Below are positions 17,101 through 22,573 of a stretch of 64,000 bases of DNA, one piece after another. The notes beneath the pieces were generated by a model, which was not told the origin of the DNA, ran no database searches, and saw only the letters and a program-made list of their open reading frames with translations. Source of the DNA: Sphingobacteriaceae bacterium (lineage in GTDB: Bacteria > Bacteroidota > Bacteroidia > UBA7662); assembly GCA_030682795.1 (NCBI GenBank), contig JAUXNJ010000047.1, forward strand, positions 124,001 through 188,000, written 5' to 3'. Position numbers and translations under genes: made by a program. The first letter of the stretch is position 1. Every line of letters starts with the position of its first letter.

Positions 17101-17136
17101 TAAAAGCCGTCTTAAAGCTATTTAAGGCGGCTTTTA
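17101..17136. terminator. Bidirectional terminator between aminotransferase and the glycosyltransferase operon
   Basis: A 16-base inverted repeat, TAAAAGCCGTCTTAAA / TTTAAGGCGGCTTTTA, with one wobble pair and a short loop. The last bases are also the stop codon of the minus-strand gene. Confidence 0.85.
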
Positions 17137-18282
17137 TCGTTTCAGAATGTGATCAAGTAAGGGGAGGTAATATTCCCAAAAAAAATATGCGCGGTCGGTA
17201 GGCTCTGTGGGATCGTAAAAAAACTCCCGAAACCATCTTATACCTTTAAAATAACTTCTTTTGTAGGTGAGGGGATTATCGGCAAAATCGCCAGCAAAAT
17301 AATAAAAGCTATAATCGTAATCCTCATGCCTGATGATGGCTGGAAAGTTTTTTTTTAGTCCTATTTTAGCAAGAAGTTCATCTCCTTTTGCGGTGGTTTC
17401 CAAGTTGTATTGGGCTAGCACTTCATTTTCGCCTGGGTCCATGATATCAAACCAAAAGGGGTAAGGCATTTGTTTTGGCAGTTTGGTTTCTTGTTGAAAA
17501 AACGGGGCTGTTCGAATAATGGGTACAGGAAAGGTTAATTCAACGTCCATCTCCAAAATCTCAATCTTATCGGCTTGGCTTACTAAGACGATTCCAGCTT
17601 TTTTAAAGGGCCATTTGCCATGTTGAAGGACATATTGGCTTTTCATCCATTGAGGGATTTCCTTATTTTGAAGGGTATCGAGGTTTTCGACGAATCTTCC
17701 AATCCAGCCGGTCCATTTAAGATTGAATAGCGCTTCAAACGCACTTCTTTCAGTTTCAGCAGTAGGAGATCCTATGCAGTTAAATTCGGTAATGATGGTT
17801 TTGCCGAGGGATTTGGCCTTGTTCATTACATGCAAATCAGCCACCGACAATCCGCCGTAAATAACGCCCGAGCGCTCGTTGGCTGAAATGCTTTTATTCC
17901 ACTCTTGTTCGAAAATCCCATAGGTATCCGTGAAATACAAAAAGTCTGAAAAGTTCGCTACGCTATCAAGCTGATTAACAGTGAGCTGACTTAGGCCCTT
18001 GATTTGGTATTGTCCGTTAAGACCGGGGAAAAAGCCGTAGTAATCTCGATCGGGATTGAAGCGTTTTCTGGTTATTGGATGCACATATTTCTCATGGTTT
18101 AGGTGCCAAAATAAGGAGGCATGCTCTTCATTACTGGTGTTAAGGACTGTTTTATCGATGACGGTAATGGCTAAAGGCTGTTTGGGTTGTAGAAACCAAA
18201 CGAGTAGCATGATCAATGGACTTGCAAAAATCAGAATCACCATGATTTTGATCAGCTGGAGGAAGCGGGCGAAGTTTTTCAT
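17134..18282 (-). CDS. Membrane-anchored protein of unknown function, last gene of the polysaccharide-type operon
   Basis: 382 residues. One membrane segment at about 11-32 is followed by an extracytoplasmic domain of roughly 350 residues. I do not recognise a named family. Distinct segments are VIYGGLSVADLHVMNKAKSLGK, EFNCIGSPT, KWTGWIGRFVENL, PYPFWFDIMDPGE and the repeated-aromatic YYFAGDFADNP, which look like a folded enzymatic or binding domain rather than low complexity. The ATG overlaps the glycosyltransferase stop as ATGA, so it is almost certainly made with the synthase. Possible roles are polysaccharide modification, hydrolysis, or assembly with the synthase in the periplasm; the sequence does not decide. 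I recall related GWxGR/AGDFAD-type hypotheticals outside Bacteroidota, unverified. Confidence 0.85.
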   Translation of the reverse strand: MKNFARFLQLIKIMVILIFASPLIMLLVWFLQPKQPLAITVIDKTVLNTSNEEHASLFWHLNHEKYVHPITRKRFNPDRDYYGFFPGLNGQYQIKGLSQLTVNQLDSVANFSDFLYFTDTYGIFEQEWNKSISANERSGVIYGGLSVADLHVMNKAKSLGKTIITEFNCIGSPTAETERSAFEALFNLKWTGWIGRFVENLDTLQNKEIPQWMKSQYVLQHGKWPFKKAGIVLVSQADKIEILEMDVELTFPVPIIRTAPFFQQETKLPKQMPYPFWFDIMDPGENEVLAQYNLETTAKGDELLAKIGLKKNFPAIIRHEDYDYSFYYFAGDFADNPLTYKRSYFKGIRWFREFFYDPTEPTDRAYFFWEYYLPLLDHILKR

Positions 18283-19703
18283 TTTTTTGGTGCGCTAAAA
18301 CCTGTTCTGGTCATTTCTCCCCAGCTTTTTTTACCTTTTATAAAATCTATATTGCCCTGGATGGCCCACCAAACAACAAATGGGTGATGAAAGAAGGGCT
18401 CTAACATGGCAGCGGTAATTAACTTCAGAATGTCTTTAAAACGTTTGTATTGGTGATAGGAAAGTTCATCAAAAAGAATGGCGGCCATGCTCATCATCAT
18501 GGCAAAGGCATAAACACTACCCATGAGCGCAAAGAAAAAGGGCCAATTTGGTAAGTTTAAAAGGGCTAATAGCATAAAATACACGATCCCAAATGTTTCA
18601 ATGATGGGTGCCATCCATTCAAAAAAGAACCAATAGGGGTAGCTAAACATTCCCAGAACGCCATATTTGGGATTGAAAAACATCTTTTTGTGCATGAGCA
18701 AAGTTTCAATCGTACCCCGCATCCAGCGATTACGCTGCCTGCTTAAGATTTTGTGCGTCGACGGCGCCTCGGTCCAACATAAGGGATCGGGAATAAAATT
18801 GACTTCATATTGCTCCCCTTTTTCGATCATAAAGCGTCGCATCCGAACAATTAGCTCCATATCTTCTCCTACAGTATTGTGGTCGTAGCCCCCACAGCCA
18901 ATGGCGATTTCGCGGTCAAACAGTCCAAAAGCCCCAGAAATGAGCAACAAGCCATCGGCCTTGCTCCAACCCATTCGGCCCATCAAAAAAGCGCGCGTAT
19001 ACTCCATTACTTGAAAGCGGGCAATGAGGCTGTCAGGCACGTGGATGGCCTTTAAATAACCGTCTTCGATCACGCAAGAGTTTGCGATTCTAATTACGCC
19101 ACCTACAGCAATGGTGCGGTTTTTACTCTCTAAAAATGGCTTGATCATTTTTAAAAGCGCGTCTTGAGATAAAACGCAATCTACATCGATGCAAGCGGCG
19201 AATTTACCACGACTTACATTTAAGCCAGCATTTAAGGCGTCGGCTTTGCCTCCGTTTTTTTTATCGATGACTAACAAGCGCCCATATATTTCTTGTTTTG
19301 ATTTGTAAATGCTTCTTATTTCTTGATGGTGAATGGGGGCATCAAAAGCATAGGGTACAGCTTCTAAATCAAAATTTTCAATGAGCTTTTCTAAAGTATT
19401 GTCTTTTGAGCCATCATTCACAACTACGATCTCAAGCGAGGGGTATTGTAAGGCTAAAAGCGAACGAACATTTTCTACAATCGTAAGTGATTCGTTGTAG
19501 GCAGGTGCAATTAGGCTGATGGCTGGTGAAATGGGGGACGCTAAAATCTCGCGATAATCGGTATTGGCATTTTTCTTTTTATAATAAATTAAAGCTTGTG
19601 CCGATACCACGGCCAAAATCAAATAAGAAGAGCATATCGCAATTGTATAAACGAGCAATACCAGGTCGAAGTAATGTGTGAAAATTTCTAATCCAGTTTT
19701 CAT
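18279..19703 (-). CDS. Membrane GT2 glycosyltransferase, processive synthase type
   Basis: 474 residues. A membrane segment at about 14-37 precedes a cytosolic GT-A domain. NDGS (96-99), KNGGKADALN (149-158), the Asp173-x-Asp175 metal/sugar-nucleotide motif, GED281 and RQRNRW (322-327, the Q/RxxRW signature) are all intact. These are the features of processive synthases such as PgaC, cellulose and hyaluronan synthases. The C-terminal region (about 350-450) has three or four further membrane segments and ends W-G-E-M-T-R-T-G-F. It should polymerise a beta-linked polysaccharide from a nucleotide sugar across the inner membrane. Substrate unknown. It overlaps both neighbours by 4 bases. Confidence 0.93.
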   Translation of the reverse strand: MKTGLEIFTHYFDLVLLVYTIAICSSYLILAVVSAQALIYYKKKNANTDYREILASPISPAISLIAPAYNESLTIVENVRSLLALQYPSLEIVVVNDGSKDNTLEKLIENFDLEAVPYAFDAPIHHQEIRSIYKSKQEIYGRLLVIDKKNGGKADALNAGLNVSRGKFAACIDVDCVLSQDALLKMIKPFLESKNRTIAVGGVIRIANSCVIEDGYLKAIHVPDSLIARFQVMEYTRAFLMGRMGWSKADGLLLISGAFGLFDREIAIGCGGYDHNTVGEDMELIVRMRRFMIEKGEQYEVNFIPDPLCWTEAPSTHKILSRQRNRWMRGTIETLLMHKKMFFNPKYGVLGMFSYPYWFFFEWMAPIIETFGIVYFMLLALLNLPNWPFFFALMGSVYAFAMMMSMAAILFDELSYHQYKRFKDILKLITAAMLEPFFHHPFVVWWAIQGNIDFIKGKKSWGEMTRTGFSAPKK

Positions 19704-20818
19704 GGCGCTGGTAATCTTGGGTCTTCTGCATGCTTGAGGCGTAGCAACACCTCCTCAGAAAGGTTTAGACCTGCTAAAAGTGAGGAGAGGAATGCAGGGT
19801 CATAGCCTCCACGTAGGCCGAAAGCTGCCATCAAGGATAATTGATGGTCGCTACTGGTAAGGGCATCCAAAAATAATTGAAGCGAATTATAGCCGGTGCC
19901 TCTCAAGTAATCGAGTATGGCTATTCTTACTTTTATGGTTTCGGACGAGAATCTTTGAGCCAACATGGACTCCGCTTCAAAGTCGCCAAGCTTGCGCAAG
20001 GCCTTAATGCTTTGAAACCGAATTTCTTCGTTGTGATGGGTACTTAACAGAGTGAGGGCAGCAATGTCTTGATGGCATCCAAAATAAGAGGACATCCGTA
20101 TTCCAAAAATAATCACGCTGGCATTATCGGAGTTGTACAAGGTTTTAAAACTGTCGTGTTTGGTGTTTCCTCTCGATTTTAAGGATTCGTGCAGCCGAAG
20201 TTGTTCCCAGTCGCTTAGCTGGTAGCTCAGGTCTTTTAAAAAAGAGATACTTTCACGCGAATTTTGCAATTCAAGCAGTGCCAATTGTGCATTGCCCCTT
20301 ACCAGAAACTCTTTGTCTAAAACCATTTTGGCAATCAGCGGCATTGCTTCTGTGATCTGCATTTCTCTCAGCTCATTGATGCCGGCTGCTTTCACTTCCC
20401 AACTAGAAGACCCAAGTTTTTGAAGGCAGTATTGATCGAGCTTAAGCTTTCTGAATAGTTGCTGTATGCTATTGGCAAGTTCACCCTCTAAACCTTTATG
20501 TACTGCAACAAGTTCGTCTACCAGCAACTGTTTCTGAAATCTGTTTTTGAGATATTTTTTTTTAAAAGACTTTTCAAATTCTGCTTTCAGTAATGCCGTT
20601 TCTGGCTCTTCCAACATTTGAAGGATAATGAGCTCGAAAACAGCTTTTAGTTTTTTGGACTTCCGGGAGTCACTGATTTTAGAGAGCCTACTGAAAATGG
20701 TAACGATTAAAAATGTGCAGGCTAATATTAAAAAAGAGAAAATGAGCCAAAAAATAAATAACATGCTGGCGCCGTGGTTATAAAGCGCATATTCAGAGAG
20801 AGACTTGAGCGTATTCAT
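19700..20818 (-). CDS. Membrane-anchored HEAT-repeat protein
   Basis: 372 residues. One strong membrane segment (about 18-42) is followed by a basic stretch and helical repeats. From about residue 140 the pattern is HEAT-like (VKAAGINELREMQITEAMPLIAKMV, VRGNAQLALLEL, IRFQSIKALRKLGDFEAESML, VRIAILDYL). HEAT repeats form protein-binding solenoids. By the positive-inside rule, with Arg/Lys-rich sequence directly after the membrane segment, the repeats are probably cytosolic, where they could scaffold the glycosyltransferase or the receiver protein. That assignment is inference. It is linked by ATGA overlaps to the YaiO-like gene upstream and the synthase gene downstream. Confidence 0.85.
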   Translation of the reverse strand: MNTLKSLSEYALYNHGASMLFIFWLIFSFLILACTFLIVTIFSRLSKISDSRKSKKLKAVFELIILQMLEEPETALLKAEFEKSFKKKYLKNRFQKQLLVDELVAVHKGLEGELANSIQQLFRKLKLDQYCLQKLGSSSWEVKAAGINELREMQITEAMPLIAKMVLDKEFLVRGNAQLALLELQNSRESISFLKDLSYQLSDWEQLRLHESLKSRGNTKHDSFKTLYNSDNASVIIFGIRMSSYFGCHQDIAALTLLSTHHNEEIRFQSIKALRKLGDFEAESMLAQRFSSETIKVRIAILDYLRGTGYNSLQLFLDALTSSDHQLSLMAAFGLRGGYDPAFLSSLLAGLNLSEEVLLRLKHAEDPRLPAP

Positions 20819-22062
20819 CGAAATAAATATTGAATTGCAAGTCCCGTACTGTATCGTGTTCTGAAGAAGCCCGGCAAAAATTCTTCATTTTTATATTCTG
20901 CAAATGGCCGAATTAACAAGGATTGTTTGATGGGTATCTGGCCCTCCAAGCGAAGTAAAAAAGCATCTAACAGGTAGATTTGATTGGAGCTTTGTTCTGC
21001 GGGATTATTCAGCCTGAAGTCCATATCTGGTGAATTGCCCAAACCAGTAGTGATGCCTAGCCATTGCCTGCTGTTTTTGAAATAGCGCCGTGCCTGTAAG
21101 TTGTAGGTTAGGTAGAGGTTGCCAGCGGTTGGGATGACGAACGGACGAATACTGAACCAATAGTTTTTCCGATACTTTGAAAGTGCTGTAGTAAAAGAAG
21201 TGACCGGTGCATCTGAGAACTGCTGATGACGAAGTCCAGCCGAAAGTTCCCAACTTGGCTTTAACGTAGTAAACCACTCAAAACCTAAGCGGAAAGTGGG
21301 GAAAAGTACACCTTGCGCTATTCCTACACCTGCATAGACATAGTTTTTATCATTTAATCGAGAATAGTGTTCGATTTCGAGCTGCGTGGAAGCTAAATTG
21401 AATCGACTAATTTGCGTGGCGCGAAACAATACTGGACCTCGCTTGAGTTGTCTGCCGTATTCAAGTGAAAGCCAATGCCAATCCGGAATTGAATTGTCAA
21501 AAGCACTGTATTGGTAATCAACTACCAAATGTTGCTTTTGGGTTTTGTAGATGTTTTGTTCGTGTAAATTACGGAGACTAATAATTTCTGGATGTTGTGC
21601 TAATAAAAGCTCTGTAAGCTTGAAACTTTCCTCGTATCGCTCAAGGGCATGATAAATGCGCGCTTCAGTGAAACGCAGCTGGGGGTCTTGTTTAATTGGA
21701 GTGGGGAGATTTTCAAAAACCACTAAGGCCGAATCATTTTTACCCGCCCATAGGAGTGCATCGAAAATAAGGAGACGAATTTCCTTATTTTCGGGATGCT
21801 TGTCCTTTAAGAGGATTGCTTTTTGTAAGCCTAAGGCATAGTTTTTATCCCACAAATAAGTACGAGTGAGCAACAGTTCAGCATCTAAATAAGCGGGGTC
21901 TGCTACCAAAATGGTTTCGAGCAGGGTTCTAGCTTCGGTATAGGCTTGGGCTCGGGCAGCGGTTTGGGCAGCTTGAAAAAGACTATCGGTATTCAAGGGG
22001 GCTTGAGCCTGTGAAAACACTGAAGCGGTTATAAAAACAAAGACAAGCCAGCTCCTCATCAT
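20815..22062 (-). CDS. YaiO-family TPR/outer-membrane beta-barrel protein
   Basis: 415 residues with a signal peptide (about 1-20, ending SQAQA). Residues about 24-190 are TPR-like helical pairs (EARTLLETILVADPAYLDAELLLTRTYLW is one unit). Residues about 195-415 show alternating aromatic/hydrophobic strands and end in LAIQYLFR, as expected for an outer-membrane barrel. This matches the YaiO family. TPR plus barrel is also the design of PgaA and BcsC, which bind and export polysaccharide, so a secretion channel for the adjacent synthase is a reasonable inference. Two tandem ATGs; the first overlaps the receiver gene stop by 4 bases. Confidence 0.85.
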   Translation of the reverse strand: MMRSWLVFVFITASVFSQAQAPLNTDSLFQAAQTAARAQAYTEARTLLETILVADPAYLDAELLLTRTYLWDKNYALGLQKAILLKDKHPENKEIRLLIFDALLWAGKNDSALVVFENLPTPIKQDPQLRFTEARIYHALERYEESFKLTELLLAQHPEIISLRNLHEQNIYKTQKQHLVVDYQYSAFDNSIPDWHWLSLEYGRQLKRGPVLFRATQISRFNLASTQLEIEHYSRLNDKNYVYAGVGIAQGVLFPTFRLGFEWFTTLKPSWELSAGLRHQQFSDAPVTSFTTALSKYRKNYWFSIRPFVIPTAGNLYLTYNLQARRYFKNSRQWLGITTGLGNSPDMDFRLNNPAEQSSNQIYLLDAFLLRLEGQIPIKQSLLIRPFAEYKNEEFLPGFFRTRYSTGLAIQYLFR

Positions 22063-22421
22063 CTTCTAAGATATTTGCGAACTCGAATACTGAGTTCTTC
22101 CGGACTAAAAGGTTTGCTGATAAAGTCGTCTGCTCCTAGAGAAAAGGCTTCCACTACGGTTTTTTCTAATCCAACGGCGGATAAGATAATGATAGGCGTA
22201 TTTTTTTGTAGGACGTTTCTGACGTGATTAATTATTTCCAAACCTGATACGTAAGGCATCATGATGTCTGTTAAAATGAGGTCAGGTAATTCAGATGCTA
22301 TCATGCTTAGTCCAGTTTTGCCATCGGCAGCAATTAATACCTCGTATCCTTCTTTTTTTAGTCTGAATTCTAATATTTTGAGCATCATGCGCTCATCTTC
22401 TATGACTAGTATTTTTTTCAT
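22059..22421 (-). CDS. Single-domain response regulator (CheY-like receiver)
   Basis: 120 residues from the ATG at 22421 (MKKILVIEDE). Upstream in-frame sequence runs through the promoter and is rejected. All receiver positions are present: acidic pair Glu8/Asp9, phospho-acceptor Asp52 in LTDIMMP, Ser81 and Lys103 in ISKPF. There is no output domain, so it must act by protein-protein contact, perhaps on a later product of the operon such as the HEAT protein or synthase. No histidine kinase is adjacent; the kinase at 60445 belongs to another pair. It is the first gene of the five-gene operon, with a TATCTTTG element 15 bases upstream. Confidence 0.93.
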   Translation of the reverse strand: MKKILVIEDERMMLKILEFRLKKEGYEVLIAADGKTGLSMIASELPDLILTDIMMPYVSGLEIINHVRNVLQKNTPIIILSAVGLEKTVVEAFSLGADDFISKPFSPEELSIRVRKYLRR

Positions 22422-22436
22422 AAACCAAATGCTGTG

Positions 22437-22444
22437 CAAAGATA
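22437..22444 (-). promoter_or_regulatory. -7 element TATCTTTG of the receiver-YaiO-HEAT-GT2 operon
   Basis: An exact TAnnTTTG followed by CAC on the minus strand, 15 bases before the receiver ATG. No other element is visible inside the operon, where the genes overlap. Confidence 0.68.
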
Positions 22445-22573
22445 CCCGATAGACAATGTCTAAAGTTGGGCTTAAATTAGTCATTTTGCATATATTCTCT
22501 TTATTTTAGGACGAATTAATGAGGATGCCAAATTTGTGCATCTGCGGTAACAACCATCCTAATCGAAAATTAT

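Follow-up and report, generated by a model that had tools for sequence, protein, structure and literature searches.

A five-gene operon and its flanks

The window, i.e. the whole 64,000-nt stretch of DNA that we analysed, contains five minus-strand open reading frames (ORFs) spanning positions 22421 to 17134, as deduced from the ORF list and the translations. This agrees with a preliminary description of the same DNA, which had proposed a five-gene operon on this strand; likewise, the 4-base ATGA overlaps that it claimed are present at all four junctions (22059-22062, 20815-20818, 19700-19703 and 18279-18282). The genes and associated signals are:

Gene 1: 22059..22421, minus strand; 120-aa response regulator consisting of a lone receiver domain (Pfam Response_reg, 100 bits)
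Gene 2: 20815..22062, minus strand; 415-aa protein in which a signal peptide is followed by TPRs and a YaiO outer-membrane beta barrel, possible pore for export (Pfam YaiO and TPR_19; TIGR04390)
Gene 3: 19700..20818, minus strand; HEAT-repeat protein with a single TM helix near its N-terminus, candidate adaptor (Pfam HEAT_2, 52 bits, three stretches)
Gene 4: 18279..19703, minus strand; processive-type GT2 synthase, membrane-integrated, 474 aa (motifs, AF2 fold)
Gene 5 (P5): 17134..18282, minus strand; N-terminal TM anchor and periplasmic GATase/ThuA-like (flavodoxin-like) domain, unnamed family (AF2, Foldseek)
Possible promoter: 22437..22444, minus strand; possible Bacteroidota -7 promoter element TATCTTTG (sequence match only)
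Terminator: 17101..17136, minus strand; strong hairpin followed by a T run, lying where two convergent genes meet (MFE -15.7 kcal/mol, z -4.3)

Judging from the translations, the operon has as its neighbours a convergent gene for an aminotransferase-like protein and a divergent one whose product resembles acyl-CoA synthetases. Gene 1 admits a longer alternative reading that begins at the ATG at 22484; we favour the start at 22421 because lengths of 118-125 aa predominate among the homologous single-domain receivers. The promoter claimed for the operon stood in part: TATCTTTG is present at 22444-22437, and its promoter role goes no further than plausible, with TANNTTTG being common (72 occurrences in the window vs 62 expected by chance), no good -33 TTG seen upstream of TATCTTTG, and a distance of ca. 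16 bases to the ATG. A sigma-70 promoter scan yielded five sites, fewer than in shuffles.

The encoded proteins

Response_reg is the sole Pfam domain of gene 1, in keeping with its description as a receiver without output domain. The phosphoacceptor Asp, the acidic pocket and the Lys of receivers are all in this protein, and in a comparison of 72 homologous receivers, residues D9, D52 and K103 (D30, D73 and K124 in the 141-aa numbering) are shared by 93% of them or more. The product of gene 2, previously assigned to the TPR/YaiO-type barrels, has a signal-peptide-like N-terminus followed by TPRs (TPR_19) and a YaiO barrel, and passes both curated YaiO cut-offs, with 158.2 bits for Pfam PF19413 (cut-off 23.9) and 138.3 bits for NCBIfam TIGR04390 (cut-off 32). 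The barrel domain is common to this protein and to YaiO from E. coli; no experimentally shown export role of YaiO was found in the open-access literature.

Gene 3 codes for a protein with a TM-like stretch at 14-49, then basic residues and then the HEAT repeats, which fits the membrane-anchored HEAT protein that had been proposed. Because the basic residues come after the N-terminal TM helix, the positive-inside rule predicts that the HEAT part is cytoplasmic. Some HEAT proteins from Bacteroidales bear a SPOR (peptidoglycan-binding) domain at their N-terminus, with a strong match in L047:6986-8968 and a weak one in L020:6996-8996, and this domain would connect the HEAT part with the cell wall.

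The GT2 motifs D97, DxD (173-175), GED (279-281) and Q323/R324/R326/W327 of the gene 4 product are invariant in 39 sequences. Its AF2 model (pLDDT 87) has hyaluronan synthase (HAS), BcsA and chitin synthase as best PDB folds (E to 4e-15), and the archaeal mannosyltransferase PcManGT is also among the matches. The operon thus encodes what is found in the synthase-dependent class, namely a processive GT2 with D, DxD, ED and QxxRW motifs in a synthase-type membrane fold, together with TPRs and an outer-membrane barrel.

Gene 5 was originally described as coding for an unnamed, anchored extracytoplasmic protein, and P5 does carry an anchor at its N-terminus and matches no Pfam or NCBIfam family. 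Its AF2 model (pLDDT 89) gives weak Foldseek matches to GATase1, ThuA-like and GH42-domain folds, and PDB sequence searches retrieved nothing firm. We discarded P5 as a class I glutamine amidotransferase, since it lacks the Cys-His-Glu triad and, across 33 sequences, neither a Cys nor a His is invariant, so that the likeness is one of fold only. Three conserved acidic residues (D43, D119 and E166) are located at strand ends in the model, where we would guess at a ligand or glycan site.

Conservation of the gene set and its accessory partners

Searching Bacteroidota contigs with the GT2 yielded 80 loci, 79 of them with room upstream and 53 with wide flanks. A HEAT gene is directly upstream of the GT2 gene in all of the 79 loci and in 35 of the 38 loci from a phylum sample; among the 79, the two genes overlap by 4 bases in 33 loci and by 1 base in 19. 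The apparent exceptions contain either a repeat-rich membrane-anchored protein in the place of HEAT (L148 and L162) or a weak HEAT match overlapping an over-extended ORF (L160). Of the 79 Bacteroidota loci, 56 have a short receiver gene immediately before HEAT or YaiO-HEAT, vs none of 399 further long ORFs that were counted there as controls; in the phylum sample, the receiver occupies this position in 23 of 38 loci, vs 6 of 219 control genes. Natural receiver-HEAT fusions were not found among some long ORFs of the relatives' loci.

The records from outside the Bacteroidota are plasmids and show spread, not frequency. For instance, we found receiver-(TPR or YaiO)-HEAT-GT2 in Mesorhizobium, Erythrobacter and Devosia, and receiver-HEAT-GT2 in three haloarchaea, one of them with an extra small gene. 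Legionella adelaidensis contains YaiO-HEAT-GT2 plus nucleotide-sugar dehydrogenase and epimerase genes, Deinococcus contains TPR/hydrolase-like-HEAT-GT2, and Planococcus CotH-hydrolase-like-HEAT-GT2. The receiver is absent from HEAT-GT2 loci that include those of Legionella, Bacteroides finegoldii, Deinococcus, Paenibacillus and Planococcus, and it is therefore not obligatory. YaiO is present in 49 of the 53 Bacteroidota loci with wide flanks and missing from the archaeal and Bacillota HEAT-GT2 loci, as expected if YaiO is an outer-membrane pore. Conservation of order, which had been put forward as a check on the original reading, thus extends to related Bacteroidota and to distant genomes, and these comparisons indicate that the gene order is far from chance, the same order recurring across the Bacteroidota and beyond.

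A close GT2 of the operon type occurs in 90 of 395 sampled Bacteroidota genomes, roughly a quarter. Besides the window's own genome, full P5 was found in 13 genomes, all of them within these 90, a co-occurrence with a hypergeometric probability of 2e-9 when genomes are treated as independent and kinship is ignored. Twelve of the 14 P5 genes are within ca. 2.2 kb of the GT2 gene, and the other two (G101 and G151) are on other contigs. On a FastTree phylogeny of GT2, which has several long branches, P5 has to be gained or lost 14 times or more along well-supported branches, so the link between P5 and GT2 is not a single inherited accident. P5 appears in 33 of the 53 Bacteroidota loci with wide flanks; nevertheless, it is not core, because most genomes with the GT2 are without it. 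Matches to P5 in G057 (L004 and L005; E ca. 4e-4) were dismissed because one proved to be a histidine kinase and the other a protein of the TonB type, and another in G367 is weak and broken by stops.

A sulfatase-domain enzyme is encoded in 31 of the 53 loci with wide flanks, and in many relatives an LTA-synthase/phosphoglycerol-transferase-like membrane enzyme adjoins the GT2 or is fused behind it; the co-variation of P5 and the sulfatase on the GT2 tree involves only a few differing pairs. E. coli BcsA-BcsG is a synthase with a phosphoethanolamine transferase. The relatives resemble it in pairing or fusing GT2 with a membrane enzyme of the alkaline-phosphatase superfamily, but their partner is LTA-synthase/phosphoglycerol-transferase-like, and the window's own genome is without it. 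Indeed, this whole genome (estimated to be 100% complete) has no match to the sulfatase family PF00884, so its polymer is probably not modified by an LTA-synthase-like enzyme.

In Paenibacillus, a 1033-aa protein encoded directly upstream of HEAT-GT2 corresponds to P5 in its N-terminal part (29% identity, E 1e-41). Its second domain recurs near HEAT-GT2 in Bacteroidota and Deinococcus, and we infer from its motifs a resemblance to clan GH-A. This glycoside-hydrolase-like family, found near HEAT-GT2 in Bacteroidota, Deinococcus and Bacillota, has a conserved PxxxxExG motif and no Pfam or NCBIfam match that names it, with TPR or T9SS-tail domains alone scoring. A profile search gave one weak GH2 match (E 0.015), and PDB sequence searches nothing firm. 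Members are encoded at:

L176:11-1756 and L176:2880-4868
L016:11649-14201
L081:1712-4285
L164:2420-4972
L181:2328-4754
L186:1802-3871

CotH kinase-family genes also occur inside or beside the HEAT-GT2 set, at L012:5745-7169 (a Bacteroidota MAG) and L186:359-1777 (Planococcus). Likewise, nucleotide-sugar genes beside the synthase vary by host, with GlmS and a nucleotidyltransferase in Halosolutus and the dehydrogenase and epimerase in Legionella (L184:6609-9583 and L179:1907-4108), which hints at different polymers.

Control of synthesis and relation to known systems

A survey of synthase-dependent exopolysaccharides comprises five systems (cellulose, acetylated cellulose, PNAG, alginate and Pel), with a c-di-GMP-binding part being typical of the operons (PMC7112194). 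As in the systems covered there, the operon of the window combines an inner-membrane synthase, a periplasmic part and a TPR/outer-membrane pore; unlike them, it has no c-di-GMP part, has a receiver and a HEAT protein instead, and is not among the five. Neither HEAT nor "response regulator" was found in the available text of that survey (PMC7112194), and no description of the five-gene set was found in the full text of the open-access literature. We take it to be a machine of a familiar kind that is set apart by its control module and by accessory parts not seen before.

Neither GGDEF nor PilZ was found in the window's own whole genome (controls were positive), and control by c-di-GMP is thus unlikely. 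The same genome has 33 HATPase_c matches over the cut-off, not all of which need be histidine kinases; the operon itself contains no HATPase_c or kinase gene. Genes for hybrid kinases and Hpt proteins are neighbours of the HEAT-GT2 set in several relatives. That a receiver might act on a polysaccharide enzyme has a precedent in Myxococcus, where the phosphorylated single-domain receiver EpsW activates the phosphoglycosyl transferase EpsZ after translation (PMC12802240). The target of EpsW belongs to a Wzx/Wzy pathway, whereas here the candidates are the HEAT protein and the GT2 synthase; a precedent for a HEAT intermediary between receiver and polysaccharide enzyme was not found in the open-access literature. 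Gene adjacency and the myxobacterial precedent (PMC12802240) suggest a relay from the receiver through HEAT to GT2. In one Bacteroidota locus (L160:5907-7532), two receivers fused to a GGDEF domain are encoded directly upstream of HEAT-GT2; phosphorelay and c-di-GMP control may be merged there, and c-di-GMP may enter in some lineages.

From the gene order, the motifs and fold of GT2, and the YaiO/TPR protein we infer, with good support, that the operon synthesizes and exports a polymer. This supports the phospho-receiver-controlled machine first proposed, of which the receiver-HEAT-GT2 relay stays the more conditional part. On balance, we think it likely that the five genes together make up a complete exopolysaccharide machine of the synthase-dependent kind, with the phosphorylated receiver acting on the synthase via HEAT. 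GT2 would polymerise a nucleotide sugar and extrude the chain through a membrane channel of its own. In the periplasm, P5 with its inner-membrane anchor would handle or bind the chain, and the YaiO protein would use its TPRs and barrel to carry the chain across the outer membrane. An unlinked histidine kinase would phosphorylate the single-domain receiver, which would then dock on the membrane-anchored HEAT protein, and upon docking HEAT would switch the synthase.

It is improbable that GT2 is not a polymerase and instead attaches single sugars to lipids or proteins, the set then decorating an envelope component. GT2 does fall short of the curated thresholds for PgaC, CelA and NodC, and has PcManGT among its fold matches, but the QxxRW-type motif and the GED base are invariant, the first fold matches are polymerising membrane synthases, and there is a companion TPR/YaiO barrel that is absent from the archaeal and Bacillota loci; its earlier assignment as processive-type is hence supported. 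Hyaluronan synthases (Chlorella virus HAS and Xenopus HAS1), the best of these fold matches, share only ca. 16% identity with GT2, and we know of no HEAT or receiver partner for them. We give very little credit to the operon being a divergent PNAG/Pga or cellulose/Bcs system. Although PgaC/IcaA poly-GlcNAc synthase (TIGR03937) is the best NCBIfam match, and the TPRs and outer-membrane barrel resemble PgaA/BcsC, GT2 reaches 144.3 bits against a cut-off of 422.3 for that model and 41.2 against 699.1 for CelA/BcsA (TIGR03030). No PgaB deacetylase, PgaD, BcsB or PilZ domain was found in the five proteins using Pfam and NCBIfam, nor does the operon contain any other deacetylase gene. With PilZ and GGDEF missing genome-wide, the absences listed in the preliminary description, and its view that this is not a known Pga or Bcs system, are confirmed.

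A further alternative, which appears to us unlikely though to be taken seriously, is that the machine is right and the receiver acts elsewhere, for instance by serving as a phosphate sink or by taking part in a phosphorelay to transcription, HEAT being a constitutive assembly scaffold. HEAT proteins typically serve as scaffolds, some HEAT-GT2 loci are without a receiver, and the Hpt and hybrid-kinase genes flanking several relatives are as in phosphorelays. Against this, the short receiver gene is directly upstream of HEAT or YaiO-HEAT in most loci and in several phyla, archaea contain receiver-HEAT-GT2 alone, and no DNA-binding output is encoded in the operon.

Returning to the reading with receiver control through HEAT, the chances are about even that these loci represent an undescribed class of synthase-dependent system, spread over several bacterial phyla and haloarchaea. 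Its core would be HEAT-GT2, its switch the phosphorylated receiver acting via HEAT instead of c-di-GMP, and P5 and the glycoside-hydrolase-like protein would be new families of extracytoplasmic accessory proteins. This GT2 type occurs in about one in four of the sampled Bacteroidota genomes. No GGDEF enzyme that could make c-di-GMP is encoded in the genome of the window itself. If the relay is true, it would amount to direct two-component phosphorylation control of a polymerase in bacteria and some archaea, and would provide roles for several hypothetical proteins.
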